DNA of 64,000 bases, taken from assembly GCF_015751895.1 (NCBI RefSeq), contig NZ_JADOTZ010000001.1:930001-994000 (forward strand). The letters are read 5' to 3'. A program made the translations under genes and the position numbers. This document shows positions 23,695 through 40,169 of this stretch, piece after piece (within the stretch, counting starts at the first letter, position 1; each line of letters starts with the position of its first letter). The notes under the pieces are model-generated. The model was given only the letters and a program-made list of their open reading frames with translations. It was not told the origin of the DNA and did not search any database. The stretch is from Zhihengliuella flava. Lineage in GTDB: Bacteria; Actinomycetota; Actinomycetes; Actinomycetales; Micrococcaceae.

Positions 23695-24182
23695 GACAAA
23701 ACCTTGAAGTAGTCAAATGGTTCCAAGCACTCCTGGCACTGGTAGAGCGCCTTGCAGGAGGTGGAGCCGAAGCGGGAGAGTTCCTTGGTCTTCAGCGAGT
23801 GGCAGCGCGGGCACTTCACGGTCAGTCCCAGCGAGACGGGGCCGGCGGGCTTGGTGCCGGTGGGCGGGGCGATCCCGTAGGCCTCCAGCTTGGCCTTGCC
23901 CTCCTCACTCATCCAGTCCGTGCTCCACGCTGGCGTCAGCACCAGCTCCACGCGGGCGCCGAGGCCGTGCTTGCTGAACACGTTTTCCAGATCCACCTGG
24001 ATGGTGCCCATGGCCGGGCAGCCGGAGTAGGTCGGGGTGATGGTGACGACGACGGCGTCTTCGCCCTCGCGCTGCACGTCACGCAGGATGCCCAGATCCT
24101 CGATGGTCAACACCGGGATCTCCGGGTCCGTCACCTGCGCGGCGATCGTCCAGAGGTCAGTGTCCGTGTTCTGCAGAGCCAT
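23691..24182 (-). CDS. paaD: Phenylacetyl-CoA epoxidase accessory protein PaaD
   Basis: A 163-residue protein: an N-terminal DUF59/MIP18-type domain (VTDPEIPVLTIEDLGIL, TYSGCPAM) followed by a C-terminal zinc-ribbon-like segment (CPRCHS and CQEC). PaaD is thought to help assemble the iron-sulfur or di-iron centre of the epoxidase. It lies 5 bp after paaC and overlaps paaE. Confidence 0.94.
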   Translation of the reverse strand: MALQNTDTDLWTIAAQVTDPEIPVLTIEDLGILRDVQREGEDAVVVTITPTYSGCPAMGTIQVDLENVFSKHGLGARVELVLTPAWSTDWMSEEGKAKLEAYGIAPPTGTKPAGPVSLGLTVKCPRCHSLKTKELSRFGSTSCKALYQCQECLEPFDYFKVLS

Positions 24183-24187
24183 AGCAG

Positions 24188-25060: not shown

Positions 25061-25347
25061 AGGTGCTTCACCCCTTCACTCTTGGTGTAGTACGTGGCGT
25101 GCCGGTAGTCCTTGCCCTTGGGGGACTCGAAGAACTGATCCTTGGAGTCGGGGTCGGAGGAGATGATGTCCTCGGACTGCACGACCCACAGGGAGATGCC
25201 CTCGTTCCGGCGCGTGTAGAGGTCCCGAGCGTTGCGGACGGCCATCTCGGCGTCCGGCGCGTGCAACGAACCCGCATGCACATGGGACAACCCGCGGGAG
25301 GAGCGAACGAAGACTTCCCACAGGGGCCAGCTCGTGTTGTCAGTCAT
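25057..25347 (-). CDS. paaB: Phenylacetyl-CoA epoxidase subunit PaaB
   Basis: A 96-residue protein matching PaaB: WPLWEVFVRSSRGLSHVHAGSLHAPDAEMAVRNARDLYTRRNEG, then SLWVVQSEDI. It is a small bridging subunit of the epoxidase complex. It follows paaA after 3 bp and overlaps paaC. Confidence 0.95.
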   Translation of the reverse strand: MTDNTSWPLWEVFVRSSRGLSHVHAGSLHAPDAEMAVRNARDLYTRRNEGISLWVVQSEDIISSDPDSKDQFFESPKGKDYRHATYYTKSEGVKHL

Positions 25348-25350
25348 TCC

Positions 25351-26328
25351 TTAGGCCACCTTTTCTGCCTGCTGAGCCGCGTAGGCCGCGGCGGCTTCGC
25401 GCACCCAGGCGCCGTTCTCATGTGCTTCGCGGCGGCGCGCCAGGCGCTGCGCGTTGCAGGGGCCGTTTCCGGAGATCACGGCCTTGAATTCGTCCCAGTT
25501 CAGGTCCTGATGAATCCACTGTCCGGTTTCCTCGTCGAACCGCAGTTCGGGATCCGGCAAGGTCAGGCCCAGCACCTTGGCCTGTTCCACGATCATGCCC
25601 ACGAACCGCTGGCGCAGGTCATCGTTGGAGAAGCGCTTGATGTTCCATTCCATGGACTGCTGCGAGTTCGGCGAGTCCGCGTCCGGCGGGCCGAACATCA
25701 TCAGCGCCGGCTCGTAGAACCGGTCGACGGCGTCTTGGGCCATCTTCTTCTGTGCCTCGGTGCCGTTGGCCAACTCCAGCAGGATCTCGAAGCCCTGCCG
25801 CTGGTGGAAGGACTCCTCCTTGCAGATGCGCACCATCGCGCGGCCGTAGGGGCCGTAGGAGGCGCGGCACAGCGGGACCTGATTGGCGATCGCGGCGCCG
25901 TCGACCAGCCAGCCGATGGCCCCCATGTCCGCCCACGTGCGGGCCGGGTAGTTGAAGATCGAGGAGTACTTAGCGCGCCCGGAGAGCAGCTGATCGTTCA
26001 GCGTGTCCCGCGGGGTGCCGAGGGTTTCCGCGGCGGAGTACAGGTACAGACCATGGCCGGCCTCGTCCTGCACCTTGGCCATCAGGATGGCCTTGCGCTT
26101 CAGGCTCGGAGCCCGGGTGATCCAGTTGGCCTCCGGCTGCATGCCGATGATCTCCGAATGCGCGTGCTGGGAGACCTGTCGCGTCAGGCCCTTGCGGTAG
26201 GCCTCCGGCATCCAGTCACGGGGCTCGATGCGCGAATCCTTCGCAATGATCTCGTCAAAGTGCGCCTGCCCGGCGCGATCTTCCTCGGATGCGACGGCCG
26301 TTAGGCGGGCGCCGTTTTGCTCAGCCAT
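25351..26328 (-). CDS. paaA: Phenylacetyl-CoA epoxidase, catalytic subunit PaaA
   Basis: A 325-residue ferritin-like di-iron oxygenase. The metal-binding helices include [31 protein letters not shown] (E-x-x-H) and [17 protein letters not shown] (E-x-x-H). It inserts one oxygen atom from O2 into the aromatic ring of phenylacetyl-CoA to give the 1,2-epoxide. It is the first gene of paaABCDE-paaG-soxR, with a predicted PaaR operator 23 bp upstream of the start. Confidence 0.96.
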
Positions 26329-26350
26329 GGTTACCTCACTCAGGAATTAT

Positions 26351-26373
26351 TTACTGACCGTTCGTTCAGAATA
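26351..26373. promoter_or_regulatory. Predicted PaaR operator upstream of paaA
   Basis: TTACTGACCGTTCGTTCA (26351-26368) is identical over 18 bp to the site at 57383 in front of paaJ, and close to those before paaZ (44220) and paaI (35058). It matches the shape of the TetR-type PaaR palindrome known from corynebacteria (ACTnACCGnnCG...). The site lies between the paaA start and the divergent oligopeptidase gene and would overlap the paaA promoter. Confidence 0.78.
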
Positions 26374-26519
26374 TGCGATCGGCGCCGGGTGGTCAACACC
26401 ACATTCGGGCCCGCCGTCGGGCTGCCCGACGGCGAACCGACCGCCACGCTATGCGGCTGTCGGCGAACACGGGCGTGCACGGCGCGCGCCCCGCCCCGCC
26501 CGTGGCGTTCAATGGGGGC

Positions 26520-28781
26520 ATGAGTGATCCCATGCTGTCCGCGAGCTCCCCGGCAGAGCCCGGCCCCTCCCACCGCGACCTCACCGCGGCGACGACGTCG
26601 GCCCCCGCCCCCGTCGCGGCCAAGGTGCCCACCGAGCGCACCCATCACGGCGACACCTTCACCGATGATTACGAATGGCTGCGCGCGAAGGACAACCCCG
26701 ATGTCCTGGCCCACCTGCGCGCAGAGAACGAGTACTCGCAGGCGGTCACGGCCCACCAGCAGCCGCTGCGGGACGCCATCTTCAGCGAGATCAAGGCCCG
26801 GACGGAGGAAACTGACCTCTCCGTACCCTCCCGCAAGCGCGGCTGGTGGTATTTCACGCGCAGCGCCGAAGGTCAGCAATACACCGTCCAGTGCCGCGTC
26901 CCCGCGGCGACCACGGGCGACGACGTTGCCGATTGGACCCCGCCGGCGATCGAGCCGGGGCAACCGATCGACGGCGAGGAGATTCTGCTCGACGGCAACG
27001 CCGAGGCCGAGGGCCAGCCCTTCTTCTCCCTCGGCGGCATGGCGATTTCCGAGGATGGCCACCTGCTGGCCTACGCGGTGGACAACGCAGGTGACGAGCG
27101 ATTCACGCTGCGCGTGAAGGACCTGCGCACCGGCGAGCTGCTGCCGGACACCGTAGACAACGTGTTTTACGGGCTGGCCTTCTCCCCGGATGCCGAGCGC
27201 ATCTACTACACGGTGGTGGACGATTCGTGGCGGCCCTATCAGGTCAAGGTCCACACGCTGGGGACCGCGGCGAGCGACGACGTCGTGCTCTATGAAGAGG
27301 CAGACCCCGGAATGTGGACCGGGTTCGAGCTCTCCCCGGACCGGACAGAACTGCTGATTCAGGTGGGCAACTCGGAGTACGCCGAGACGCACAGCCTAGA
27401 CCTGACCGACGCGGCGGCCCGCCCGCGGCTGCTCATTTCCCGCGAGGCCCGCCTGCTGCACGGCATGGACCCGTTGACCCTGCGCGGCACGCGTCACTAC
27501 CTCATCACCCACAACCACACCCCCGGCGGGGACGCGGCACCGAACAACATGGTCTCGCTCGTACCGGCGACGGAGCTAGAGCGGGAATTCTCGGACCAGT
27601 CCTGGACCACGGTGCTGCCCCACGCAGATGACGTCAAGATCGAGGGCACCGCCCTGACGCACACCCACCTGCTCGTGGTGCTGCGCCGGGAGACCACCGA
27701 ACGGGTGCAGATTCTTCCGCTGGACGGGCTGGGCACCGCCGCGCAGGCCGAGCCCGTGGAGCCCGCGTTCGACGAGGAGCTGTACACGGCCGCCTTGGCC
27801 GGCGCGGACTTCGAGTCCCCGGTGGCCCGCCTGACCTACACCTCCTTCCTCACCCCGCCGCGGGTCTACGACTACGTACTGGGCACCGGAGAACTCCTGT
27901 TGCGCAAGGAAACCCCCGTGCACGGGTACGACGCCTCCGAGTACGTGGCCGAGCGCGACTGGGCGACGGCGGCCGACGGCGTGCGGATTCCGGTGACCAT
28001 CATGCGCCACCGCTCCGTGACCGCTGACGGAACCAACCCGGCGCTCGTCTACGGCTACGGCAGCTACGAGATGAGCATGGATCCAGCCTTCGGGATTCCC
28101 CGCCTATCCGTGCTGGACCGCGGCGTGGTGTTTGTCATTGCCCACGTGCGTGGCGGTGGCGAGCTGGGCCGCCAGTGGTACGACGACGGCAAGAAACTGC
28201 GCAAGAAGAACACCTTCACGGACTTCATCGCGGTCACGGAGCACATCACGCGTGCCGGGTGGGCGGCGCCGGAGCGGATTGCCGCGATGGGCGGCTCGGC
28301 CGGCGGCCTCCTGATGGGAGCCGTGGCCAACCTGGCCCCACAGCTGTACCGCGCCATCTTGGCCCAGGTGCCCTTCGTGGACAATCTGACGTCCATTCTG
28401 GATCCCGACCTGCCGCTGTCCGCCCTCGAATGGGAGGAGTGGGGCAACCCCATCGAGGACGCGGCCGTGTACGAGTACATGAAGTCGTACAGCCCGTACC
28501 AGAACATTGCCGCCGTCCCCTACCCGAAGATCGCGGCCGCAACGAGCCTGAATGACACGCGCGTGCTCTACGTGGAACCAGCCAAGTGGGTCCAGAAGCT
28601 GCGTGAGGTCACCACGGGGACCGAACCGATCGTGATGAAGATCGAGATGGACGGCGGCCACGGCGGCGCCTCCGGGCGGTACGAGGGGTGGAAGGACCGC
28701 GCGTGGGACTACGCCTACGTCCTCGACGCCCTCGAAGCGACCGCTCGGCTGAGCACTGCCTCGGACGTGCCCACCCGCTAA
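26520..28781 (+). CDS. ptrB: Oligopeptidase B (S9 serine peptidase)
   Basis: A 753-residue prolyl-oligopeptidase-family enzyme: an N-terminal seven-bladed propeller (about residues 70-420) and a C-terminal alpha/beta hydrolase domain. The nucleophile motif is GGSAGGLLMGA, followed by ILAQVPFVDNLTSILDPDLPLSALEWEEWGNP, a stretch typical of oligopeptidase B, and the catalytic His in EMDGGHGGASGR. It cleaves short peptides after basic residues in the cytoplasm. The ATG preceded by GGGGG was chosen over a longer extension that runs through the paaA promoter. Confidence 0.93.
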   Translation: MSDPMLSASSPAEPGPSHRDLTAATTSAPAPVAAKVPTERTHHGDTFTDDYEWLRAKDNPDVLAHLRAENEYSQAVTAHQQPLRDAIFSEIKARTEETDLSVPSRKRGWWYFTRSAEGQQYTVQCRVPAATTGDDVADWTPPAIEPGQPIDGEEILLDGNAEAEGQPFFSLGGMAISEDGHLLAYAVDNAGDERFTLRVKDLRTGELLPDTVDNVFYGLAFSPDAERIYYTVVDDSWRPYQVKVHTLGTAASDDVVLYEEADPGMWTGFELSPDRTELLIQVGNSEYAETHSLDLTDAAARPRLLISREARLLHGMDPLTLRGTRHYLITHNHTPGGDAAPNNMVSLVPATELEREFSDQSWTTVLPHADDVKIEGTALTHTHLLVVLRRETTERVQILPLDGLGTAAQAEPVEPAFDEELYTAALAGADFESPVARLTYTSFLTPPRVYDYVLGTGELLLRKETPVHGYDASEYVAERDWATAADGVRIPVTIMRHRSVTADGTNPALVYGYGSYEMSMDPAFGIPRLSVLDRGVVFVIAHVRGGGELGRQWYDDGKKLRKKNTFTDFIAVTEHITRAGWAAPERIAAMGGSAGGLLMGAVANLAPQLYRAILAQVPFVDNLTSILDPDLPLSALEWEEWGNPIEDAAVYEYMKSYSPYQNIAAVPYPKIAAATSLNDTRVLYVEPAKWVQKLREVTTGTEPIVMKIEMDGGHGGASGRYEGWKDRAWDYAYVLDALEATARLSTASDVPTR

Positions 28782-28855: not shown

Positions 28856-30247
28856 CTAGAGGTTGATCACGGTTTCCGCGAGCAACGCGGCGGCGATGAA
28901 GGTGGAGGAGAACGTCATCATCGCCACGATGACGATCTTCCAATTCAGCGTCTTCAACGCATTCACGTCCCGCCCCAGATTGAGCCCCAACAGGGCGATC
29001 GAGGCGAGCCCCACGAACAGGGCATCGAGGTGCTGAGTCGCGGCCACCACCACGTCGGCGGTGGGCATAAACGGCGCCGTCACGAGCGTGGCCAACGCGA
29101 GGACCCACACGCTCGGGGGCACGCTGCGGAAGCGGTGGGACAGGACAAAGGCCACCGCGGCCAACCCGCCGAGGATCAGGATGCCGGCCACGTCCGCGAA
29201 CCGGAAGCTCCCGGTGCCCAAGACGTTGAGCAGCAGCCCCACGGCGAGGGCGACGGCGAACACAAAGACCCACGTCCTCGGGCGCATCCTGACCTCTGGA
29301 TCGGCCACCACGGCATCGACGTCGACCTCCCGAGCGCGCAGTGCGGCCGCTTCCTTGCGGCCGCCGATGCGGTGGCCGTCGTCGTTCCTGCGGAACACCT
29401 TGGACCAGAACGGGTAGAGCCGCTGTGCCAGCGGCAAGGAGAGGAAGACGCCGGCGTAGAACCCCACCAAGTTGGTCACCAGGTTGGACAGGGCCGCCAG
29501 CGCGAGGATTTCACCCGCGCTCTCGGGATAAATGATGGACAGGGCCGCCACGCCGCCCATCATCATGGATCCCGACCCGAGCCCCAGCCCGAGCGCTAGG
29601 GACCGCGGGTCGAAGAACCCGGTGCCACCGAGCAAGCCCGCCAACAGCGAAACGAAGACCGCGCCGAAGACGCTGCCGAGCAACCACACGGAAAAGACGC
29701 CCCGGTAGATCGGCGACGTGACGCCAAACTTCTGCAGGGCGTACGCCAAATAGGATTCGCGATCAATCGCCCACGTGGCACCGATGGCGGCTCGCCCCAT
29801 GCCGAGGCCCACCGCAACGGGCAGGGCCAGGATGACGGTGCCGAAGATGTGTCCGACCTCCTGCAGGAGGACGGCCGGCCCGATGCCGGTCAGTTCGCTC
29901 AGCGCGGGCCCGACGTTGACGCCCAGCGCGGCCAGGAACAGCACGATGCTGACGTTGAGCAGCACGGAGGACACCGCGCGACTCTGCCCGGAAAGCGGCC
30001 GCAGGCGCTGGACGCCGACGATGGCTCCCATCAGCACGGCCCACAGGATGGGCATCAGGACAATGGCCGCATTGCCGAGCTCTATCTTGTAGGTGCCCAG
30101 CAGGATGGCGCCCGCGCAGATGGCCGTGGACAACACGATGACCAGGCCCCATTGCCGCGGTGTCGGGGTGAATCGCTGGGGTGCGGCCTCCCGGACCGGC
30201 GATTCCTCCGCCGGTCCTGCCGCGTCAGCCGTTGCCTCGCGCTCCAT
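28856..30247 (-). CDS. DUF3100-type multi-pass membrane permease
   Basis: About 463 residues with roughly ten to twelve hydrophobic segments and a charged central loop (FRRNDDGHRIGGRKEAAALRAREVDVDAVVADPEVRMRP). Conserved-looking stretches are GLGLGSGSMMMGGVAALS and LALAALSNLVTNLVGFYAGVF. The architecture fits the DUF3100 family of putative secondary transporters, whose substrates are unknown to me. The ATG preceded by AGGTGGAG is preferred to a GTG three codons upstream. A TTTGGTATACCTGA operator lies 40 bp upstream of the start, shared with three neighbouring units, so it probably imports the substrate of the adjacent amidohydrolases. Confidence 0.82.
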   Translation of the reverse strand: MEREATADAAGPAEESPVREAAPQRFTPTPRQWGLVIVLSTAICAGAILLGTYKIELGNAAIVLMPILWAVLMGAIVGVQRLRPLSGQSRAVSSVLLNVSIVLFLAALGVNVGPALSELTGIGPAVLLQEVGHIFGTVILALPVAVGLGMGRAAIGATWAIDRESYLAYALQKFGVTSPIYRGVFSVWLLGSVFGAVFVSLLAGLLGGTGFFDPRSLALGLGLGSGSMMMGGVAALSIIYPESAGEILALAALSNLVTNLVGFYAGVFLSLPLAQRLYPFWSKVFRRNDDGHRIGGRKEAAALRAREVDVDAVVADPEVRMRPRTWVFVFAVALAVGLLLNVLGTGSFRFADVAGILILGGLAAVAFVLSHRFRSVPPSVWVLALATLVTAPFMPTADVVVAATQHLDALFVGLASIALLGLNLGRDVNALKTLNWKIVIVAMMTFSSTFIAAALLAETVINL

Positions 30248-30286
30248 GTACTCCACCTCTCGCCGATGCCGCTACGGACACTCATA

Positions 30287-30300
30287 TTTGGTATACCTGA
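30287..30300. promoter_or_regulatory. Predicted GntR operator before the DUF3100 permease
   Basis: TTTGGTATACCTGA. It matches, on one strand or the other, the sites at 30406, 33157 and 34965 (core TGGTATACC / GGAATAC). It is 40 bp upstream of the permease start. Confidence 0.62.
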
Positions 30301-30405
30301 GTGTAAGGTGGATCACAGGTCCGAACAAGAGAATGACGCCGGAAATTCACAAACACCGGCGATGACCTGACTCTTGATCGCGCACCGAACGACCGATCGG
30401 CTTAG

Positions 30406-30420
30406 TTTTGGAATACTGAA
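30406..30420. promoter_or_regulatory. Predicted GntR operator before the first amidohydrolase
   Basis: TTTTGGAATACTGAA, 17 bp upstream of the amidohydrolase ATG. It is close to the reverse complement of the site at 34965 (ATTTGGAATACCAAA), the most symmetric member of the set. Confidence 0.6.
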
Positions 30421-30436
30421 AATTACTGGAGGCACC

Positions 30437-31900
30437 ATGATCACGCAGCTCACGGCCCGGCACGTCCTCGGATTCGACGGCACGCAGCACGTCCTCTTCA
30501 CCGACGGCCAGGTGATCATGGAGGATGACGTGATCCGCTACGTCGGGACGTCTTACGACGGCCCCGTCGACGAGTACCGGGACTACGGCAACAGCGTCAT
30601 CACCCCGGGACTCATCGACCTCGACGCCCTCACGGACATCGACCACCTCATCATCGACTCGTGGCCCACCCCCGAGACCGCTCCCGGCCTGCAATGGTCC
30701 CGGGACTACTTTGAGCAGCGCCGCCGCGACGTGTTCACCCTCGAACAGCGCCACACCGTCCGCCGGTTCGCCCTGGCCCAGTTGGCCCTGCACGGCGTGA
30801 CCACGTTCATGCCGATCGCCTCAGAAATCCACAGCGCGTGGGCGGAAAGCCTCGCCGAGCTCAAGGACATGACGGCCACCACACTGGAGCTGGGGCTGCG
30901 CGGCTTCCTCGGCCCGGCGTACCGCTCCGGGATCAATGTCACCGACGACGACGGCTCCCGCGTCATCCTCTTCGACGAGGACGAAGGCCGGCGCGGCTTA
31001 CGCGAGGCCGTGGAGTTCCTCGACTACACCCAAGAGCTCCATCACCCGCTGGTGACGGGCGTCCTGTTGCCGTGCCGCATCGAGACCCTCTCCGCGGATC
31101 TCCTCCGAGAGACCGCGCGTGTGGCCCTGGACCGGGACGCCCTGGTGCGCCTGCACTGCCTTCAGTCCCCCGCCGAGGACGACTTCCTACGGGAACGCAC
31201 GGGGAACACCGTCCTGCAGGAACTCGAGGACTCACGCATGCTGCAGGCGCGGCTCCTCATTCCGCACGGGATCGTCATCGACGCACTGGGCCTAGAAGCC
31301 ACCGCAGCGGGCGGCCCGCTGGAACTGCTCGCGCGCCACGGCGTCAGCGTGGTGCACTGCCCCTTGACCACCTTCCACTACGGCAAGGCGCTGTCCTCCT
31401 TCGACGCCTTCCACGCGGCGGGGATCACGATGTGCCTCGGGACGGACTCCTTCCCGCCGGACCTCATCCGGGGCATCGACGTCGGCACGCACCTCGCCCG
31501 GCTCGTCGAGGGCCGCAGCGATGCCGGCAAGGTCTCAGACTTCTTCAATGCGGCCACCCTCGGTGGTGCGACGGCGCTCGGGCGCCCGGACCTAGGGCGG
31601 ATCGCCCCCGGAGCGCAGGCGGATCTGACGATCTTCTCCCACGATGACTTCCGCGACGGCGTCCAGGAGGACCCCCTGCGCACGCTGGTGCTCAACGGGT
31701 CAGCGCGCAACGTCACGGACACCTTCGTCGCGGGGCGGCCCGTCGTCGTCGACTCCGCCCTCCCGGGCATCGACTTGGCCGAGCTCATGCGCGACGGCCA
31801 AGAGCTCTTCGAGCTCATGGTGGCCGCCTATCCGGAGCGCGACTACCGTCGGCGCAGCGCCGAGGAGCTGTTCCCCGGCACCTACCCGGCGGCTCAGTAA
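30437..31900 (+). CDS. Amidohydrolase-superfamily protein with altered metal motif
   Basis: A 487-residue protein of the ATZ/TRZ-like amidohydrolase branch. The N- and C-terminal composite sandwich domain is recognisable (PGLID, then TLGGATALGRPDLGRIAPGAQADLTIF), and downstream ligand motifs are present (LVRLHC, LLIPHGIVID, VHCPLTTFHYG, GTDSFPPD). The usual HxH after PGLID is missing: residues 57-65 read PGLIDLDAL. The enzyme may therefore bind metal differently or be a divergent subgroup. It hydrolyses or deaminates an unknown C-N substrate. CTGGAGG precedes the ATG. It converges with the second amidohydrolase, overlapping it by 7 bp at the ends. Confidence 0.85.
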   Translation: MITQLTARHVLGFDGTQHVLFTDGQVIMEDDVIRYVGTSYDGPVDEYRDYGNSVITPGLIDLDALTDIDHLIIDSWPTPETAPGLQWSRDYFEQRRRDVFTLEQRHTVRRFALAQLALHGVTTFMPIASEIHSAWAESLAELKDMTATTLELGLRGFLGPAYRSGINVTDDDGSRVILFDEDEGRRGLREAVEFLDYTQELHHPLVTGVLLPCRIETLSADLLRETARVALDRDALVRLHCLQSPAEDDFLRERTGNTVLQELEDSRMLQARLLIPHGIVIDALGLEATAAGGPLELLARHGVSVVHCPLTTFHYGKALSSFDAFHAAGITMCLGTDSFPPDLIRGIDVGTHLARLVEGRSDAGKVSDFFNAATLGGATALGRPDLGRIAPGAQADLTIFSHDDFRDGVQEDPLRTLVLNGSARNVTDTFVAGRPVVVDSALPGIDLAELMRDGQELFELMVAAYPERDYRRRSAEELFPGTYPAAQ

Positions 31901-33117
31901 CTCGTCGGCACCGACAGCACCTTCAGCGCGTCGGCGACCACCCGGCCGCGGTGGATCACGGTGCGGTCCTGCCCGCGGTCCATCACGGCGGAGGCCACGG
32001 TTTCGCCGTCGACGAGGACCAGCTCCGCCGGATCCCCCACCCCCAGGCCGGGCCGATCCTCGACCGAGGTGAGGCGGGGAATCCTTCGATCCATGATGGA
32101 GGCCCCGCCCATCGTGGCAATGGCCAAGGCGTGGCCGATCAGGGCGTCGTCACGGTAGCCGTTAATGAAGGACAGCTGCCACGTCCGGTCCAACATGTCG
32201 CAATTGCCGTACGGGCTCCAGTAGTCCCGTTGCCCGTCCTCCCCCAAGCCGATGCGGACGCCGGCGTCGGTGCAGGAGGCGATCGGGAGGTGCTCGGTCA
32301 CGCGCGGGGCGACCGTGGTCCAAGAGATGTCGAGCTCGGCAAACAGCTCGATGAGCCGGCGCGTGGTGGCGTCGTCAACACCGCCAAGGCCGAAGGCGTG
32401 GGAGATGTTCACGCGGCCCTGCATCCCCAGGGCCCGGGTGCGCTCCGCAATCAGCTCGGCCGAGAAGACGCCCATCGTGCCCATCTCGTGGAGGTGGACG
32501 TCGATGTCCACCTGATACTTCTGTGCCAGCTCAAAGACCGTATCTAGATGAGCCGCCGGGTCCCGGTCCAGCGAGCACGGGTCAATCCCGCCCATGGCAT
32601 CAGCGCCAGCGCGCAGGGCCGCCTCCAAGTAGTCCCGCGTCCCCTGTTCCCGCAGGATGCCGGCCTGCGGGAAGACCATGACCTGCACATCGGCGTCGGC
32701 CGCGAACTTCTCCTTGGCCTCGATGACCGCCTCATACTTCTCAAGGCCACAGTCCACGTCCACCTGCGCGAAGGAGCGGACCCGCGTCGTGCCCCGAGCG
32801 ATCATGCGCTCGAGGGTGCCTGCCACCCGCTCCGGCAGCGGCCGCTCGGCCTCTCTCCAGTTCTCGCGGTCGTTGGTCATCATGGTCCAGACACCCGGCC
32901 CGCCGGTGTGCTCACGGAACGGCAGGCCGATGCGCGTCGAGTCGAGGTGCACGTGGACGTCGGAGAAAGCGGGGATCAGAAGGCGCCCCCGACCGTCGAG
33001 CGCATCGCCCTCTGGAGTTCGCTGAGGCTCATGTGGCACCACTGCCTCGATGACGCCGTCCTTCAGCCGAACATCACTGGATTCCCCACCCCACGGGCGG
33101 ACGTTGCTGATGAGCAC
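31894..33117 (-). CDS. Cytosine deaminase-like amidohydrolase
   Basis: A 407-residue protein of the CodA/AtzC branch. Metal ligands are complete: FSDVHVHLD (HxH), VDVHLHEMG (His), NISHAFGL (His) and GLGEDGQRDYWSPYGN (Asp). The last motif resembles the CodA signature around the metal Asp. Cytosine deaminase relatives act on many ring amines, so the substrate is open. The start is a GTG 10 nt after AAAGG. A GntR-type operator lies 40 bp upstream, and the gene sits between the first amidohydrolase and the GntR gene. Confidence 0.88.
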   Translation of the reverse strand: MLISNVRPWGGESSDVRLKDGVIEAVVPHEPQRTPEGDALDGRGRLLIPAFSDVHVHLDSTRIGLPFREHTGGPGVWTMMTNDRENWREAERPLPERVAGTLERMIARGTTRVRSFAQVDVDCGLEKYEAVIEAKEKFAADADVQVMVFPQAGILREQGTRDYLEAALRAGADAMGGIDPCSLDRDPAAHLDTVFELAQKYQVDIDVHLHEMGTMGVFSAELIAERTRALGMQGRVNISHAFGLGGVDDATTRRLIELFAELDISWTTVAPRVTEHLPIASCTDAGVRIGLGEDGQRDYWSPYGNCDMLDRTWQLSFINGYRDDALIGHALAIATMGGASIMDRRIPRLTSVEDRPGLGVGDPAELVLVDGETVASAVMDRGQDRTVIHRGRVVADALKVLSVPTSY

Positions 33118-33156
33118 GGTGCTACCTTTCCGTTGAGGATCTGCCGATGCTCTGAA

Positions 33157-33170
33157 CTGTATACCAAATG
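33157..33170. promoter_or_regulatory. Predicted GntR operator before the second amidohydrolase
   Basis: CTGTATACCAAATG; on the minus strand CATTTGGTATACAG, matching TTTGGTATACCTGA at 30287 over the first 10 bases. It is 40 bp upstream of the GTG start of the CodA-like gene, the same distance as the site before the DUF3100 gene. Confidence 0.62.
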
Positions 33171-33198
33171 AAACGCGTGTCGGGGCCGTCCGCGTGGC

Positions 33199-33885
33199 TT
33201 AGCTCAGTTCGTGGCCCGTCGCCTCGGCCGCGTTGGCGCGGCTGGTCTCCAAGTGGGCAATCACAAGGTCGCGCATACCAGCCACGTTGCGCGCGGCAAT
33301 GGCCTCATACAGGGCCACGTGTTCGCGGGCGATCCCGTGGAGGTCATGATGCTGGGACAGGAGCCAGCGCATCCGAGCGGATAACTGCGTCTGCACCTCC
33401 AGCAGGAGCTCATTGCCCGCCAGGCGCGTGACCACCTCGTGAAAGCGCACCCCAGCGCGGCGCGCCTCCACGGCAGCGCCCGCGCGGGCAGCGGCGAGTT
33501 CCTCGTCGACGGCAGCGCGCAGCTGTTCCAGATCCTGACGGTGGTGCCGCTGGGCGGCCAGCTCGAACGTGAGTACCTCCAAGGAGGTACGGACCTCAAT
33601 CAGATCCGCGATGTCTGAGGCGGTAAATTCGCGCACAATCGCCCAGCTGCGTGGCCGCGGCGTGACGAGGCCCTCGCCGACCAGCGCCTGCAGGGCTTCA
33701 CGCACCGGCAACCGGCTCACCCCGAGCTCAACGGCCAGATCCCGCTCCACCAGCTTGCTGCCGGGAGCCCGGACGCCGTCCACGATCTCGTTGCGGAGCA
33801 GTTCGGTGACACGCGCCGCCTCCGACTTGAACTCGGCCTGCTCTGCCACTTGATGCCCCCTGCGTCGTGATTCGTCTCCAAGCAT
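33199..33885 (-). CDS. GntR-family (FadR-type) transcriptional regulator
   Basis: A 228-residue protein: a winged helix-turn-helix (EIVDGVRAPGSKLVERDLAVELGVSRLPVREALQALVGEGLV) and a C-terminal FCD-type all-helical effector domain with histidines (FHEVVTRLAGN, SQHHDLHG, EHVALYEAI). The ATG is preceded by GGGGGAG with 5-nt spacing. It lies 43 bp after the ornithine-cyclodeaminase-like gene on the same strand. The proposed operator TTTGGTATTCCAAAT lies before that gene, so it is probably autoregulated and controls the surrounding four transcription units (inference). Confidence 0.9.
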   Translation of the reverse strand: MLGDESRRRGHQVAEQAEFKSEAARVTELLRNEIVDGVRAPGSKLVERDLAVELGVSRLPVREALQALVGEGLVTPRPRSWAIVREFTASDIADLIEVRTSLEVLTFELAAQRHHRQDLEQLRAAVDEELAAARAGAAVEARRAGVRFHEVVTRLAGNELLLEVQTQLSARMRWLLSQHHDLHGIAREHVALYEAIAARNVAGMRDLVIAHLETSRANAAEATGHELS

Positions 33886-33928
33886 TCGCTCCCCCGCGAT
33901 CCTAGAGCATTGACGCACGCCGCGTCGG

Positions 33929-34915
33929 CTAGGCGGATAGATCAATCTCGCATCCTAAACCGCGCTCCCGGGCGCGGTCGTAGGCCAAGCGACCCACGGC
34001 GAGATCCTGCAGGCCGATCCCCACCGAATTGAACAGCGTGATCGCCCCTTGATGCCCGCGGCCAGGGACGCTGCCGGCCACCACCTCTCCCAGCTCGCCG
34101 CGCAGCTGAATGGCCTCCGTGCCCCGCTCGCCGACCGCCAAAAGATAGTCGCCTGACTTGGCCGCGACGGTGCCACGGTGGTCCACGTAGACGTCCGCCC
34201 TGGCCAGGCCCTCGGCGTCGATCTCCCGCTCCGTGGGGCGTGGACGCGCGCCGACCGCGTTGATGTGCTGCCCCGCGCGGAACCATGCGCCCTTCACGAG
34301 CGGCTCAACCGACGGCGTCAGCGTGCACACCACGTCACTGACCGCGAAAACCGACGCGACGTCGTCGGCGGCCTCGACCCTCAGCCCGTGGTGGGCCACG
34401 GCCTGCCGGAACTGTTCCACGCGCTCACGGGTGCGGGACCAGACCACCACCCGCCGCAAGGGCAGCACGTGGACCAAAGCCTCGACGTGGGCGACGGCCA
34501 GCGCGCCGGCACCCACGAGGCCCAGCACACTCGCGTCGGCACGCGCCAAGTGCCGGCTCGCGACGGCGCTCGCGGCCGCCGTCCGCACGCGGGTCGGGAC
34601 CCGCCCGTCGAGAATCGCCAGGGACTCGCCGGTGCGGTAATCGCTCAGCAGGAGGGTGGACCGCTGGGACGGCAGCCCACGCTCGGCGTTGGACGGGATG
34701 TCCGCCAAGAGCTTGACCGCGGAGGCCTGCTGGGTGGAGGCCAGCGAGGGCATGACGATGAAGTGTGAGTCTCCGGCCGGCACCGTCATGGCCACGGGAT
34801 CCGGTTGGCGCGCGCTGCCGCGCACGGTATCCGCAAACACCTGTTCGACGGCGGCGATGGTCGAGGGCATGTCAATGACCTGTTCCAAGTCGGAAGCGGT
34901 GAGAATCAGGGTCAT
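33929..34915 (-). CDS. Ornithine cyclodeaminase / mu-crystallin family protein
   Basis: A 328-residue NAD(P)-binding protein. Segments LASTQQASAVKLLADIPSNAERGLPSQ and ILDGRVPTRVRTAAASAVASRHLA form the substrate-binding N-terminal half. LGLVGAGALAVAHVEALV is the dinucleotide-binding motif, and INAVGARPRPTEREID carries conserved family residues. Members include ornithine cyclodeaminase, alanine dehydrogenase, ketimine reductase and opine-forming enzymes, so the reaction is not fixed. The ATG used here has GGAAGG 7 nt upstream; longer starts read through the predicted operator. It is the first gene of an operon with the GntR regulator. Confidence 0.88.
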   Translation of the reverse strand: MTLILTASDLEQVIDMPSTIAAVEQVFADTVRGSARQPDPVAMTVPAGDSHFIVMPSLASTQQASAVKLLADIPSNAERGLPSQRSTLLLSDYRTGESLAILDGRVPTRVRTAAASAVASRHLARADASVLGLVGAGALAVAHVEALVHVLPLRRVVVWSRTRERVEQFRQAVAHHGLRVEAADDVASVFAVSDVVCTLTPSVEPLVKGAWFRAGQHINAVGARPRPTEREIDAEGLARADVYVDHRGTVAAKSGDYLLAVGERGTEAIQLRGELGEVVAGSVPGRGHQGAITLFNSVGIGLQDLAVGRLAYDRARERGLGCEIDLSA

Positions 34916-34964
34916 GGAACGGCCTTCCGCGGGCGAGTGATCAGGGAAACTCATCCTACGCCGC

Positions 34965-34979
34965 TTTGGTATTCCAAAT
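34965..34979. promoter_or_regulatory. Predicted GntR operator (most symmetric site)
   Basis: TTTGGTATTCCAAAT is nearly palindromic (reverse complement ATTTGGAATACCAAA). It lies 50 bp upstream of the ornithine-cyclodeaminase-like start and would give autoregulation of the downstream GntR gene. Confidence 0.65.
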
Positions 34980-35100: not shown

Positions 35101-35586
35101 ATGACGGAGGCCACCACCCAGACCGCCGTTGCGGGCCCGGAGTACTTGTCCGTGGCGCACGAGGACGCCGCGAGCCTGGATCACCCCATCCTGGCCGAAG
35201 ACCGCACCGCCGGTTGGCTCGGCCTCAAAGTCCGCCACCTCGCCGACGGGCACGCGGTCACCACGATGACGCTCCGCGAGGAAATGCTCAACGGCTTCGG
35301 CATTGCCCACGGCGGCATGATCTTCGCGTTCGCGGATACGACGTTCGCCTTGGCCTGCAATCCGCACACTGGCAGCGTCGACACCATCACGGTGGCTTCC
35401 GGCGTCGACGTGAACTTCCTCAAGGCCGGCATCCCCGGCCGCACCCTCACCGCCGTCGCAGACCGCCGCGCCCAGAGCGGCCGCAGCGGGATCTACGACG
35501 TTCGCATTTACCAGTCCGTTCCCGGCGCCGATGACGAGGTCGTCGCCGAGTTCCGCGGCCGCAGCCGCACCATCGCCAAGAAGTAG
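35101..35586 (+). CDS. paaI: Phenylacetate-pathway hotdog thioesterase PaaI
   Basis: A 161-residue hotdog-fold thioesterase. The catalytic stretch is LNGFGIAHGGMIFAFADTTFALACN (GxAHGG and the helix Asp). PaaI hydrolyses ring-hydroxylated phenylacetyl-CoA or stalled intermediates and frees CoA when the pathway blocks. GAGGAGGACCCGCC precedes the ATG. It is the first gene of paaI-paaK-paaR, with 29 bp before paaK. Confidence 0.93.
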   Translation: MTEATTQTAVAGPEYLSVAHEDAASLDHPILAEDRTAGWLGLKVRHLADGHAVTTMTLREEMLNGFGIAHGGMIFAFADTTFALACNPHTGSVDTITVASGVDVNFLKAGIPGRTLTAVADRRAQSGRSGIYDVRIYQSVPGADDEVVAEFRGRSRTIAKK

Positions 35587-35615
35587 CCACCCCACCAACA
35601 CAGAGGTACGCCGCC

Positions 35616-36941
35616 ATGACGCAATCCGCCGCCGAGACCACTCCCGACCTGGCCAACCCGCTGGATCCCGAAGAGACGATGAGCCGGGACCAGATCGAGT
35701 CCCTGCAGCTGGAGCGCCTTCAGGAAACCGTTTCCTACGCGTACAACCGAGTCCCCCTCTACAAGGAAAAGTACGACGCCGCGGGCGTGCACCCGTCCGA
35801 TCTCAAGGAACTGGGCGACCTGGCCAAGTTCCCGTTCACGGAGAAGGAAGACCTGCGCAAGACGTACCCGTTCGGGATGTTCGCGGTCCCGCGCGAGGAA
35901 GTCGCCCGCATTCACGCCTCCTCCGGCACCACCGGACGCGCCACCGTCGTCGGCTACACCAAGAATGATCTCCACAACTGGGCCACGCTCGGCGCCCGCT
36001 GCCTCCGGCTCTCCGGCGTCAAGCCCGGCTGGCGCGTGCACAACGCCTACGGGTACGGGCTCTTCACCGGCGGCCTCGGCGCCCACGCGGCGGCCGAGCA
36101 GCTGGGCGCGACGGTCATCCCCATGTCCGGCGGCCAAACCGAAAAGCAGATCACCCTAATTCAGGACTTTCAGCCCGAGGCCATCCTGTGCACGCCGACC
36201 TACCTGCTGACCATCGGCGATGCAATGCAGCGCGCCGGCATCGACCCGGCGTCGACCTCCCTGCGGAAGGCCGTCCTCGGCGCCGAGCCGTGGACGGCCG
36301 AAATGCGCCGCGAGCTCGAGGAGATGTTCGGCCTGGATGCCTGCGACATCTACGGATTGTCCGAGGTCATGGGCCCGGGCGTCGCCGGCGAGTCGGATGA
36401 GCTCAAGGACGGCTCCCACATTTGGGAGGACCACTTCCGCCCGGAGATCGTGGATGCGTTCGACGAGACGAAGGTGCTCGGCGACGGCGAGCACGGCGAG
36501 CTGGTGTTCACTTCCCTGACCAAGGAAGCCCTGCCGATCATCCGTTACCGCACGCACGACTTGACGCGTCTGCTGCCGGGCACCGCCCGCGCCGGCCACC
36601 GCCGCATGGGCCGCATCACCGGCCGCAGTGACGACATGATCATCCTGCGCGGCGTGAACCTGTTCCCGACCCAGATCGAGGAGCTCATCCTCAAGGTTGA
36701 CGGCCTGTCCCCGCACTTCCAGCTGGAAATCACCCGCCCGGACCGGATGGACCAGCTGGCCGTGAAGGTGGAGCGGCGCACCGACTGCACCTCGGACCGC
36801 GCCGATGCCGCCGGATCGGAGCTGCAGAAGCTCATCAAGATCCACGTCGGCTCCACCTGCCGGATCGACGTCGTCGACCCCGAGTCGCTGCCGCGCTCGG
36901 TCGGCAAGCTCAAGCGGATCCACGATCTGCGCAACCTCTAG
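35616..36941 (+). CDS. paaK: Phenylacetate-CoA ligase
   Basis: A 441-residue ANL-superfamily adenylate-forming enzyme. The nucleotide-binding loop is ASSGTTGRATVVGYT, followed by YGYGLFTGGLGAHAAAEQLGA and IYGLSEVMGPGVAGES, with the C-terminal RITGRSDDMIILRGVNLFPTQIEE and PRSVGKLKRI. All are PaaK signatures. It activates phenylacetate to phenylacetyl-CoA with ATP, the first step of the pathway. Confidence 0.96.
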   Translation: MTQSAAETTPDLANPLDPEETMSRDQIESLQLERLQETVSYAYNRVPLYKEKYDAAGVHPSDLKELGDLAKFPFTEKEDLRKTYPFGMFAVPREEVARIHASSGTTGRATVVGYTKNDLHNWATLGARCLRLSGVKPGWRVHNAYGYGLFTGGLGAHAAAEQLGATVIPMSGGQTEKQITLIQDFQPEAILCTPTYLLTIGDAMQRAGIDPASTSLRKAVLGAEPWTAEMRRELEEMFGLDACDIYGLSEVMGPGVAGESDELKDGSHIWEDHFRPEIVDAFDETKVLGDGEHGELVFTSLTKEALPIIRYRTHDLTRLLPGTARAGHRRMGRITGRSDDMIILRGVNLFPTQIEELILKVDGLSPHFQLEITRPDRMDQLAVKVERRTDCTSDRADAAGSELQKLIKIHVGSTCRIDVVDPESLPRSVGKLKRIHDLRNL

Positions 36942-36960
36942 GAATGACAGAATAGGGCGC

Positions 36961-37596
36961 ATGCCAACCACCACGCAGAACGGGGCCGGTTCGGCCGCGA
37001 CGCAGTCCACGCGTCGCGGCCGGCCCGGCTACGACCAGGACACGGTGCTCAACATCGCCGTGCAGGTCTTCAATAAGCACGGATACGACGCGACGTCGAT
37101 GGGCACCTTGGCCGAGAACCTTGGGATCAGCAAGTCGGCGATCTACCACCACGTGCCGTCGAAGGGAGACCTGCTGCGGCTGGCCCTCAACGAGGCCTTG
37201 GCGCCGCTGGAGCAGCTCGGCGAGGACGAGCGCGGCCTGGCGGGCACCGCCGAGGAGCGCCTCGAGTTCCTGCTGCGTGGAACCATCCGCGTCCTCATGG
37301 AGCGCCAGCCCTACGTGACCCTACTGCTGCGCCTGCGCGGAAACACCGAGGTGGAGCGGGCGGCCATGGAGCGGCGCCGTGCGATGGACCGCCGGGTTGC
37401 CGAGTTGGTGGTGGCCGCGCAAAAGGAGGGCAGCCTCCGCGGCGATATCGACCCGCGCACCACCACCCGCCTCTTGTTCGGCACCATCAACTCCCTCGTG
37501 GAGTGGTACCGCCCCGACGGCCCGTTCTCCGCGGAGGCCGTGGAGGAAAACGCCATCGCCATGATGCTGGACGGCCTGCACACGCGCAACAAATAA
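36961..37596 (+). CDS. paaR: TetR-family phenylacetate regulator (PaaR-like)
   Basis: A 211-residue TetR protein. The DNA-binding domain reads YDQDTVLNIAVQVFNKHGYDATSMGTLAENLGISKSAIYHHVPSKGDLLRLAL. The C-terminal part is of the TetR type found next to actinobacterial paa genes (TTRLLFGTINSLVEWYRPDG). It follows paaK by 19 bp and is probably co-transcribed with it. Actinobacterial PaaR represses paa genes and is released by phenylacetyl-CoA; four matching palindromes in this window stand before the paa units. A longer frame reading into paaK from upstream is not used. Confidence 0.88.
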   Translation: MPTTTQNGAGSAATQSTRRGRPGYDQDTVLNIAVQVFNKHGYDATSMGTLAENLGISKSAIYHHVPSKGDLLRLALNEALAPLEQLGEDERGLAGTAEERLEFLLRGTIRVLMERQPYVTLLLRLRGNTEVERAAMERRRAMDRRVAELVVAAQKEGSLRGDIDPRTTTRLLFGTINSLVEWYRPDGPFSAEAVEENAIAMMLDGLHTRNK

Positions 37597-37618
37597 TCAG
37601 CGGGTAGGATGGCTGGCC

Positions 37619-38311
37619 GTGGATCAGTTGTTCAGCACCCTCTTTAATCAGCCGTTCGGCACGGACACCGGCCTGCAGGTGGCCCTCTCCGCGGTGAGCA
37701 CGCTGCTCACCGCGATCGCCCTCATGGTGCTCGCCCACCGCAATGATTTGGGCTGGTGGTTCCAGATCCTCGCGGTCTTTGCCGGGCCCTTGGTGCTGGC
37801 CCTCACGTTTGGATATGAGGGGCTGTTCTATGCCGTGCCGGCCTTGGGCATCGCGGCCTACGGCTTGTGGCGCTACAGCGCCTTTGATCTGCGCGGCAAA
37901 TTCACCCGCCTCGTCCCGCCCGCCGGATTCTCGATCGGACAACTGGCCTGGGGCGTCGCGCTCGTCGCGCTGCTCACCGCGGCCCAATGGGGCCCCTTCC
38001 TCTTCACCTCGGCGATTATCGATGCGCCCATGACCTGGCTGCAGTTCGGCGCCCTCGCCGTGACCACGGCCTCGTTCGTCGGCATTGCCCAAGGCGTGCG
38101 ATGGGCGTGGTTGGCCAGCGCCGCCGGCACGGCCGCTTATCTCGGTTGGCTCCTGACCTTCGCCCCCGGGTTCGGCAGCCTGCTGGTCTTGGTGCTGCAG
38201 TTCCTGGCCGCTCTCTACGGGTTCGTTCTGGCCGGCGCGTCCCGCCGCGGTCCTGAGGTCGACGACGCGCAGCAGGGCGCCGCGTACCCGCCCAGCCCCT
38301 ACGCCGGCTAG
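37619..38311 (+). CDS. Multi-pass membrane protein of unknown function
   Basis: A 230-residue protein with six to seven hydrophobic segments (SAVSTLLTAIALMVLAH, FQILAVFAGPLVLALTF, GLFYAVPALGIAAYGLWRYS and so on). A C-terminal soluble tail is rich in Gly/Pro/Tyr. It starts at a GTG 22 bp after paaR, so it may be co-transcribed with the paa genes. Spacing of aromatic residues gives a vague PnuC-like impression, but I do not assign it. A role in phenylacetate uptake is conceivable from position only. Confidence 0.78.
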   Translation: MDQLFSTLFNQPFGTDTGLQVALSAVSTLLTAIALMVLAHRNDLGWWFQILAVFAGPLVLALTFGYEGLFYAVPALGIAAYGLWRYSAFDLRGKFTRLVPPAGFSIGQLAWGVALVALLTAAQWGPFLFTSAIIDAPMTWLQFGALAVTTASFVGIAQGVRWAWLASAAGTAAYLGWLLTFAPGFGSLLVLVLQFLAALYGFVLAGASRRGPEVDDAQQGAAYPPSPYAG

Positions 38312-38324
38312 CTTCCTAGCCGGC
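38303..38324 (+). terminator. Hairpin at the end of the membrane protein gene
   Basis: GCCGGCTAG (38303-38311) and CTAGCCGGC (38316-38324) form a perfect 9-bp stem with a CTTC loop; the stem includes the TAG stop codon. No U-tract follows. Confidence 0.5.
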
Positions 38325-38327
38325 GGA

Positions 38328-38354
38328 CTGTGACGTACTCCGGTTTCGTCACAG
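38328..38354. promoter_or_regulatory. Inverted repeat upstream of the TPP-enzyme gene
   Basis: CTGTGACG (38328-38335) and CGTCACAG (38347-38354) are perfect inverted repeats with an 11-bp spacer, 85 bp before the ATG of the TPP enzyme. The 19-bp centre-to-centre distance suits a dimeric regulator, or the pair may extend the preceding terminator. Confidence 0.45.
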
Positions 38355-38438
38355 TGCCACACCCATCTTCGTGAGTTGGACCGCCCTCGGGTAGCTTGAA
38401 AGCAATCCCGACTTTCAATGGCGAAAGGTCCTCTCACC

Positions 38439-40112
38439 ATGACTGAAACTCTCTCCTCCCCCGCCGTGAACTCCGCGGCCACGCCCACGAAGTCCGCGGG
38501 CCACGTGATCGTCGATACCCTCGAGGCCCACGGCGTCCAGCGCACCTACGTGGTCCCGGGCGAAAGCTACCTCGACGTCCTCGACGGGCTGCACCACTCC
38601 AGCATCGACACCGTGGTGTGCCGTCATGAGGGCGGCGCCACCTACATGGCCGAAGCGGACGGCAAAATGCATCCGGTCCCCGGCGTCGCCATGGTCACGC
38701 GCGGCCCCGGCGCGGCCAACGCCCACGTGGGCCTGCACACCGCATGGCAGGATTCGACGCCACTGGTGCTGTTCGTGGGGCTGATCCCTTACGAGCATCG
38801 GGAGAAGGAGGCGTTCCAGGAGTTTGACCCCAAGGCGTGGTTCGGCACCGGAGCCAAGCGTGTCATGGTGCTCGACCACGCGGAGCGAGCCTCCGAGGTC
38901 GTCGCCGAGGCCATGTTCGCGGCGGTTTCCGGCCGGCCGGGCCCCGTCGTGGTCGGCCTGCCGGAGGACATCATCAAAAAGCAGATCCCGGCCGAACTCC
39001 ACCCGCCGATCCCCGTCGCCTTCGGCGGCATGACGGTCACCGACTGGAAGGCCCTCAACGAGGCCCTGCAGGGTTCGGACAAGCCGCTGTTCATCTTTGG
39101 CGGTAACGACTGGAGCCATGAAGGCGCGGCGGAGTTCACGCAGTGGCTGGAAGCCAACCATCTTCCTGCCGCCGCCGAGTGGCGCTGCGAGGGCACTGTT
39201 CCCTTCGACTCTCCGTCCTACGTCGGCCCCATCGGCTACGGGCGCCCGAAGCCCACCTATGACCTGCTGGAGGAAACGGACCTCTTGGTCTTCGTGGGCA
39301 CCGTGCCCGGCGACGTCATCACTGACGGCTTCAATATCCGCCAGAACTGGGATCAGAAGAACTTCTTGGTCACCATCGATCCGTCCCTGCGCGGCCGCTC
39401 CGGTCCCGTCACGCACCAGATCGTTGCCAAGCCGGACGTGTTCGTGCGGGACTTGGTGCGCATGGATTTGACGGTCAAGGACTCGTGGAAGGAATGGACC
39501 ACCAGGATGCGCGGCGAACAGGAGAAGTTTGCTGCGCTGCCCGAGGCTACCCCGGCTTCCGGCCAAGCCCGGATGGCCACGCTCATGGCGCACCTCGTCC
39601 CGCAACTGCCGCGCGACGCGATGGTCACGTTCGGCGCGGGCGAGCACACCAACTGGGCGCACCGCTACTTCCCCACCAACGGTTATGCCTCCATGCTCTC
39701 GGCCCGCAACGGTTCCATGGGCTACTCAATCCCGTCCGCCGTGGCGGCCTCGCTCAGCTACCCGGGACGCACCGTGGTCACCATCGCGGGCGATGGTGAG
39801 TTCCTGATGAACGGCCAGGAGTTGGCCACCGCGGCCCAGTACGGCGCGACGCCGCTGGTCGTCGTCATGGACAACCAGGAGTACGGCACCATCCGCACTC
39901 ACCAGGAGCGGGACTACCCGGAGCGCATCTCCGGCACGCAACTGCAGAACCCCGACTTCGCCGCCATGGCGCAGGCCTTTGGCGGCGTGGGGGTACGGGT
40001 GGAGAACGACGCCGACGTGCCGGCCGCCGTCGAAGCCGCCTTGCAGGCCACCCAGCAGGGCCAGTTTGCCCTCATCCACCTCATCGTCGAACAGCGCGTC
40101 AAGGCCTACTAA
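38439..40112 (+). CDS. Thiamine-diphosphate-dependent enzyme (acetolactate-synthase-like)
   Basis: A 557-residue protein of the POX/AHAS superfamily. The N-terminal pyrimidine-binding domain has the catalytic Glu in TVVCRHEGGATYMAEA, followed by a central domain and a C-terminal diphosphate-binding motif TIAGDGEFLMNGQELATAAQYGATPLVVVMDN (GDG to N). The reaction could be a 2-oxoacid decarboxylase, an acetolactate-synthase-like ligase or a C-C lyase. No regulatory subunit or ilv neighbour is present, so a biosynthetic AHAS is unlikely. The ATG is 10 nt after AAAGG; an ATG seven codons upstream lacks a ribosome site. Confidence 0.85.
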   Translation: MTETLSSPAVNSAATPTKSAGHVIVDTLEAHGVQRTYVVPGESYLDVLDGLHHSSIDTVVCRHEGGATYMAEADGKMHPVPGVAMVTRGPGAANAHVGLHTAWQDSTPLVLFVGLIPYEHREKEAFQEFDPKAWFGTGAKRVMVLDHAERASEVVAEAMFAAVSGRPGPVVVGLPEDIIKKQIPAELHPPIPVAFGGMTVTDWKALNEALQGSDKPLFIFGGNDWSHEGAAEFTQWLEANHLPAAAEWRCEGTVPFDSPSYVGPIGYGRPKPTYDLLEETDLLVFVGTVPGDVITDGFNIRQNWDQKNFLVTIDPSLRGRSGPVTHQIVAKPDVFVRDLVRMDLTVKDSWKEWTTRMRGEQEKFAALPEATPASGQARMATLMAHLVPQLPRDAMVTFGAGEHTNWAHRYFPTNGYASMLSARNGSMGYSIPSAVAASLSYPGRTVVTIAGDGEFLMNGQELATAAQYGATPLVVVMDNQEYGTIRTHQERDYPERISGTQLQNPDFAAMAQAFGGVGVRVENDADVPAAVEAALQATQQGQFALIHLIVEQRVKAY

Positions 40113-40120
40113 CACAACAG

Positions 40121-40158
40121 AAATCCCCCGCCACGGTCGAGACCGTGGCGGGGGATTT
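40121..40158. terminator. Perfect bidirectional terminator
   Basis: AAATCCCCCGCCACGGTC (40121-40138), GA, GACCGTGGCGGGGGATTT (40141-40158): an 18-bp perfect stem with A- and T-ends on both strands. It lies between the convergent TPP-enzyme and BCCT genes, 8 bp after the former stop and 11 bp from the latter. Confidence 0.88.
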
Positions 40159-40169
40159 CGTGTGTGCGC

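Follow-up and report, generated by a model that had tools for sequence, protein, structure and literature searches.

The 64,000-nucleotide stretch of the Zhihengliuella flava genome analysed here (the window; positions 930001-994000 in a single-contig genome of 2,895,551 bases) carries a block of five genes in about 6 kb, encoding a DUF3100 membrane protein, two amidohydrolases (AH1 and AH2), a GntR/FCD regulator and a reductase of the ornithine cyclodeaminase (OCD)/mu-crystallin family. On balance, we think that the block is a local, autoregulated catabolic regulon, controlled by its GntR protein and directed at an amino-acid-like nitrogen heterocycle. As the comparisons below show, one predicted palindromic operator lies at four promoters, and its conservation goes along with that of the gene set and of a single clade of GntR/FCD proteins. 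Import and breakdown of one nitrogen compound is a plausible role for the block. Its genes and predicted operators are as follows.

28856..30247, minus strand: DUF3100 membrane protein (putative importer); PF11299, 261.1 bits against a cut-off of 27; the ATG at 30247 is the likely start and a GTG at 30256 a possible one.
30287..30300, plus strand: operator O1, on the permease side of the permease-AH1 intergenic region; TTTGGTATACCTGA, with TTTGGTATAC invariant in 6/6 aligned sequences.
30407..30420, plus strand: operator O2, 16 bases 5' of the AH1 start codon; TTTGGAATACTGAA, with TTTGG-ATAC invariant in 6/6 aligned sequences.
30437..31900, plus strand: AH1, an amidohydrolase of the PRK06151 chlorohydrolase family with an altered metal site; NCBIfam NF004801, 600.9 bits against a cut-off of 416.
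31894..33117, minus strand: AH2, an AtzC/cytosine-deaminase-type amidohydrolase with a GTG start; NF004636, 398.5 bits against a cut-off of 408.
33155..33168, minus strand: operator O3, 5' of AH2, imperfect, with a single strong half; TTTGGTATACAGTT, with TGGTATACAGTT invariant in 4/4 aligned same-genus sequences.
33199..33885, minus strand: GntR-family (FCD) transcriptional regulator; PF00392 and PF07729.
33929..34915, minus strand: OCD/mu-crystallin family NAD(P)-dependent reductase; PF02423, 227 bits; best PDB match 6t3e.
34965..34978, plus strand: operator O4, a near-perfect palindrome 5' of the OCD-GntR pair; TTTGGTATTCCAAA, kept in 5/5 aligned same-genus sequences.

The original prediction had placed four TTTGGTATACC-like sites near gene starts, and all four were found at those places, at the promoters of the DUF3100 permease, AH1, AH2 and the OCD-GntR pair. 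Its statement that the GntR gene shares the operator stands by way of the OCD-GntR unit, there being no site directly 5' of GntR itself; as the gene lies 3' of the OCD gene on the same strand, with a 43-base gap, it is presumably under the site at 34965. When TTTGGWATWCC was searched with at most one mismatch, the window gave five matches, all inside the block and representing four sites since one palindrome scores twice. Shuffled windows contained 0.71 matches on average, and none of 100 shuffles reached five. The whole 2.9-Mb genome holds 32 such matches, against 12 for a reversed-pattern control, and five of the 32, including three of the four exact ones, fall within the block. The binomial chance of this enrichment is about 8e-9, or 5e-7 if four of 30 distinct sites are counted. 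A longer palindrome, TTTGGWATWCCAAA, occurs with two mismatches or fewer at six genome sites, three of them in the block.

The operator is retained in relatives. In aligned footprints, O1 and O2 are kept in six of six sequences (five same-genus, one Glutamicibacter), and O4 and O3 in every same-genus sequence aligned (five and four, respectively). L093, the fifth locus from the genus, lacks a GntR gene, and its AH2 has no upstream site. For wider counts, loci were hand-picked from match lists (40 regions that represent 39 of the 50 AH1-positive genomes, 36 regions mainly representing AH2 matches, and 19 plasmid regions), and upstream sites were counted in 76 same-family (Micrococcaceae) loci comprising 1.41 Mb, a set that leaves out the window, L038, L039, L091, L118 and the alphaproteobacterial loci; the genomes counted are related, and several genes hardly differ between the AH1 loci L084 and L117. 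A site was present within 300 bp upstream of AH1 in 35 of 38 cases and of the permease in 26 of 27 loci (27/29 by piece, as the permease genes of L072 and L104 come in two pieces), two counts that are not independent because the genes are mostly divergent and have one common intergenic region. Where an oligopeptide-type (Opp) transport system is found, its first gene, OppC, has an upstream site in 16/16 cases and OppA in 0/17. Only 12 of 786 other predicted genes have one, seven of them from families that recur in the clusters (three CynX-like genes, two AH2 relatives, one third amidohydrolase and one GntR). The reversed pattern gave 1/38 for AH1, 2/29 for permease pieces and 1/786 for other genes. 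The three AH1 genes that have no site (L074, L076 and L079) all lie 3' of AH2 in the same direction and are therefore probably inside operons. Across 39 loci, the consensus of the best site 5' of AH1 is TTTGGTATACCAAA, matched with two mismatches or fewer in 34. Far from being equally common before unrelated genes, then, the motif is enriched in the block and before cluster genes.

Gene order is identical in four same-genus genomes (L090-L092 and L093). The L093 locus (genome G048) has retained four of the genes and the operators before three units and has no GntR gene; either the regulator is encoded at another place or it has been lost.

The GntR protein joins an N-terminal GntR winged helix-turn-helix domain (PF00392, 59.5 bits, cut-off 27) to an FCD domain (PF07729, 72 bits, cut-off 24.3). 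When 65 GntR proteins were placed in a maximum-likelihood tree, which has several long branches and arbitrary rooting, 42 rows from same-family loci, including the window's protein, form one clade (support 99/93). This clade excludes six sampled paralogues of the window genome, and GntR genes merely present in the loci also fall outside it. Nine regulators of alphaproteobacterial clusters form a separate clade (99/97). Operator conservation and the regulator clade together predict that the cluster GntR acts at these operators. Local catabolic clusters controlled by GntR/FCD proteins of the FadR subfamily have a palindromic operator at their catabolic promoters and encode the regulator within the cluster. 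The present block is alike in both respects, but its gene content and operator sequence were found in no open-licence paper searched.

Co-conservation of the genes is also strong. AH1 occurs in 50 of 395 Micrococcaceae genomes (E<=1e-60) and, among 396 genomes sampled from the phylum, in the window's own only; its closest named relatives belong to a Zhihengliuella metagenome-assembled genome (77% identity) and to Glutamicibacter (71%). Relatives on plasmids were found in 89 records, all below 60% identity, with one from Arthrobacter, one from Rhodococcus and most from rhizobia, and viral contigs, when searched, contained no relatives of AH1 or DUF3100. AH2 is present in 107 of the 395 genomes (E<=1e-90), which comprise 49 of the 50 AH1-positive genomes versus 58 of the 345 AH1-negative ones (Fisher 3e-31; both tallied by eye from the match lists at these thresholds). 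The exception, G121, carries a weaker AH2 relative (37%) near its AH1. The five-gene set recurs in rearranged orders. The AH1-permease and AH2-Opp-GntR-OCD parts are about 2 Mb apart on one contig in G156, and AH1-permease and GntR-Opp-AH2 are on different contigs in G288, G308 and G356; in all four genomes, the operator is found at both places. The co-occurrence of AH1 and AH2 and the association of operator and gene set across loci thus agree with the proposal of a co-conserved set. The original prediction did not recognise the set as a described pathway, and our search of open-licence papers likewise found no description.

The importer varies between loci. Among 38 loci with an AH1 of at least 50% identity, 26 carry DUF3100 (two of them also with close Opp genes), 10 carry only close Opp genes and two carry neither. 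Since an OppABCDF-type ATP-binding cassette importer takes the place of DUF3100 in these 10 loci, the DUF3100 protein is probably an importer of the same compound or one like it. Locus L134 has, next to GntR, OCD and AH2, a ProY-like amino-acid permease gene (608 bits, cut-off 736) with the same operator. The window's DUF3100 protein is a fused chain of 466 residues, and its C-terminal half (residue 326 to the end) is matched by a stand-alone "hypothetical protein" encoded directly 3' of DUF3100 on three proteobacterial plasmids (split halves at L120:5980-7254, L122:5995-7345 and L123:5974-7302). In a ten-sequence test set, these matches scored 68-89 bits and non-matching proteins less than 1, so that the PF11299 domain is only one of two parts. 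Three of the five plasmid loci fetched for DUF3100 have an M20 peptidase or aminoacylase gene nearby; of the other two, one has neither and one has an unspecified "amidohydrolase". A profile search for solved relatives of DUF3100 found none, the 42-residue photosystem chain that came up (E 0.89) being noise, and DUF3100 is not named in any open-licence paper searched.

The metal ligands of AH2 (the HxH motif, both His of the HLH stretch, a later His and an Asp) are kept in 81/81 homologues and the Glu of HLHE in 80/81, the remaining one having Asp. These counts, and those for AH1 given below (n=58), cover matches with at least 36% identity across 80% of the query. The best PDB profile matches of AH2 are named N-isopropylammelide isopropylaminohydrolase; the alignment with 6nbo is nearly full length, and that with 2qt3 spans residues 37-395. 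The protein narrowly misses the cut-off of the PRK05985 amidohydrolase subfamily. The original label was CodA-like, but the protein is nearer AtzC than CodA. It shares with AtzC and cytosine deaminase the metal-ligand set and the near-full-length alignment; unlike AtzC, it belongs not to an atz operon but to a GntR regulon whose importers are of the amino-acid or peptide type.

The label OCD-like has to be revised as well. A true ornithine cyclodeaminase was rejected, the protein scoring 114.7 bits against a cut-off of 350 for PRK07589, 218.7 against 417 for PRK08618, 144.8 against 438 for PRK06823 and 68.5 against 337 for PRK06407. Its best NCBIfam model is PRK06141 (pyrroline/piperideine-2-carboxylate reductase; 245.1 bits, cut-off 322), and none of the 14 NCBIfam models that it matched had its cut-off reached. 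Alignments with 6t3e, 1omo and 4bv8, among pyrroline-2-carboxylate reductase, mu-crystallin ketimine reductase and archaeal alanine dehydrogenase, cover most of the protein. The protein thus most nearly resembles pyrroline-2-carboxylate reductase and other ketimine reductases.

Neighbouring genes in other genomes give some indication of the substrate. Of 12 loci fetched from alphaproteobacterial plasmids, 10 have AH2 next to AH1, together with Opp genes; eight of these 10 have a flavin-reductase-like gene and six an Asp/Glu racemase gene. Tests of one protein of each kind placed the flavin reductase closest to 2-nitrobenzoate nitroreductase and the racemase closest to hydantoin and allantoin racemases. 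Within the family, L073 and L107 adjoin a hydantoinase-racemase operon whose GntR is near kin of the window's, sharing its subclade (96/83). This company hints at an amino-acid-like molecule bearing a hydantoin-like ring; amino-acid-linked cyclic amidines or iminohydantoin-like rings fit the neighbours best. At L073:12313-16009, a D-hydantoinase-like gene (360.7 bits, cut-off 393), two racemase-family genes and GntR stand beside the permease. Other operator-linked genes in relatives encode CynX/NimT-like transporters of the major facilitator superfamily (MFS) and a third amidohydrolase that resembles Xaa-Pro dipeptidase (185 bits, cut-off 500). The promoter regions of the alphaproteobacterial loci L115, L116 and L127 contain ATTGT-N-N-ACAAT-like palindromes instead of the Micrococcaceae operator. 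Ring opening of the hydantoinase A type was rejected for the present genome, where PF01968 was not found (controls positive in 6/14 genomes). A PF01177 racemase gene at 1.54 Mb (L167, 1532500-1552000) lies in an apparent allantoin/urate block, the other genes of which were named by eye only; far from the window and with genes not scored singly, that block was not included in the regulon.

These elements can be put together in a simple scheme. The GntR protein would act as a repressor that is released by the imported compound or by an intermediate, and the DUF3100 protein would import the compound. Acting as AtzC or cytosine deaminase does, AH2 may then attack an amino-acid-like N-heterocycle, either removing an amino, alkylamino or imino substituent by hydrolysis or hydrolysing a bond of the ring. 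A second step could fall to AH1 through a rebuilt active site; alternatively, AH1 might assist AH2. The OCD-like reductase, finally, could turn the released (perhaps cyclic) imino acid into an amino acid for central metabolism.

The active site of AH1 bears most directly on this scheme. AH1 is related to the TRZ/ATZ family (COG0402-type), with 7ww2 (8-oxoguanine deaminase/hydroxydechloroatrazine ethylaminohydrolase) as its best PDB profile match. Its homology to 8-oxoguanine deaminase and AtzB covers most of the chain, and it retains the His of beta-5, the His of beta-6 and the Asp of beta-8 (His240, His277 and Asp337, placed by alignment to 4f0r and 7ww2), which are invariant in 58/58 homologues. 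Unlike those enzymes, all 58 homologues have D/N-x-L (D63-x-L65 in the window) in place of the beta-1 HxH metal motif and Gln (Q243) in place of the beta-5 catalytic Glu. The active site is, from these alignments, either rebuilt or dead. The earlier claim of two hydrolytic steps is therefore unsafe, as AH1 has lost the canonical catalytic residues in every homologue aligned. An alternative, which we consider unlikely though by no means far-fetched, is that AH1 is catalytically dead, or a structural or regulatory partner of AH2, and that only one hydrolytic step takes place; the near-constant company of AH2 in AH1 genomes (missing from only 1 of 50) and the adjacency of the two genes in alphaproteobacteria are in keeping with this. 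The invariance of further pocket candidates in 58/58 (D61, D67, D69, R163, R214 and E216, besides the three residues already named) nevertheless suggests a working, rebuilt site, and AH1 and AH2 stand on opposite strands in the window and its genus, while DUF3100-AH1 pairs occur apart from AH2 in four genomes.

Other explanations concern the block as a whole. The regulon might serve detoxification or resistance to an antimetabolite, a toxic heterocycle being removed or exported and not eaten. Several relatives have the operator before CynX/NimT-like MFS genes (219.5 bits for the one scored, cut-off 406), which could mean export instead of nutrition, and the one flavin reductase tested from the alphaproteobacterial clusters, being nitroreductase-like, could be read in the same way. 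However, MFS transport could run in either direction, and the transporters that share the operator (Opp-type, DUF3100 and ProY-like), along with the reductase and the hydantoinase neighbours, fit assimilation; we judge detoxification to be quite improbable. We give even less credence to a natural counterpart of the lower atrazine route, in which an AtzB-like AH1 and an AtzC-like AH2 would strip two amines from an s-triazine-like ring. The best PDB matches of both proteins point that way, but AH1 reaches only 132.6 bits on the 8-oxoguanine deaminase/AtzB model (cut-off 532) and has no HxH. Cyanuric acid hydrolase (PF09663) had no match in the genome, but neither had it in any of 14 control genomes, so its absence is not shown. 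Coincidence, both in the grouping of unrelated genes and in the motif matches, would account for one observation, namely that the full palindrome TTTGGWATWCCAAA, when three mismatches are allowed, is at background level (39 sites per strand versus 44 in the control). It does not account for an operator and gene set conserved across genera and at separate loci, and chance clustering is ruled out for practical purposes by the genome-wide enrichment, the shuffles, the upstream-site counts in relatives and the co-occurrence statistics.

Besides the background frequency of the full palindrome, the doubtful catalysis of AH1 and the operator-bearing MFS genes, several observations weigh against a GntR-controlled catabolic regulon. 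AH2 occurs without AH1 in 58 genomes and has a site within 300 bp upstream in only 9 of 67 cases, from which we conclude that it has other uses, though a number of the other AH2 genes lie inside operons. Upstream sites are likewise found in only 8/20 cases for OCD and 3/8 for the close GntR genes. The regulator clade does not include the GntR protein encoded next to a distant AH1 relative in L088. The Micrococcaceae operator was not present in the alphaproteobacterial regulator regions scanned, where the best matches had four to six mismatches. Finally, racemase, hydantoinase and flavin reductase genes are absent from the window's block.

The regulatory logic is ordinary, while the gene set, AH1 and DUF3100 appear undescribed, as far as the open-licence literature is concerned. 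The regulon recurs across Micrococcaceae, and the AH2-AH1 pair is found also on rhizobial and roseobacterial plasmids. It may serve as a test bed for three questions: the role of DUF3100 in transport, the chemistry of an amidohydrolase branch that lacks HxH, and the substrate of the regulon. The conserved operator makes the regulon directly testable and, with transcriptomics, its inducer as well. In a bolder version, which we hold only tentatively and think rather unlikely as a whole, the block would represent an undescribed pathway for an amino acid with a cyclic amidine or imidazolone ring, with a core enzyme pair common to Micrococcaceae and Alphaproteobacteria; AH1 would found an amidohydrolase subclass without HxH, and DUF3100 would be a new type of importer with two membrane parts, fused here and separate elsewhere. 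To speculate, the substrate could be, for example, an arginine-derived hydroimidazolone (a glycation product), which AtzC-type cleavage would convert to ornithine and methylhydantoin.

The block is enclosed by a phenylacetate-degradation region (22540-28781 and 35101-44262), with PaaE (22540-23694) and PaaZ (42094-44262) models above cut-off, one on each side. An oligopeptidase-B-like gene (26373-28781; 501.7 bits, cut-off 1313) adjoins the permease gene, and siderophore-type genes at 46137-51510 include a diaminobutyrate decarboxylase-like gene (423 bits, cut-off 900) and an SbnF-like synthetase gene (184.6 bits, cut-off 900).

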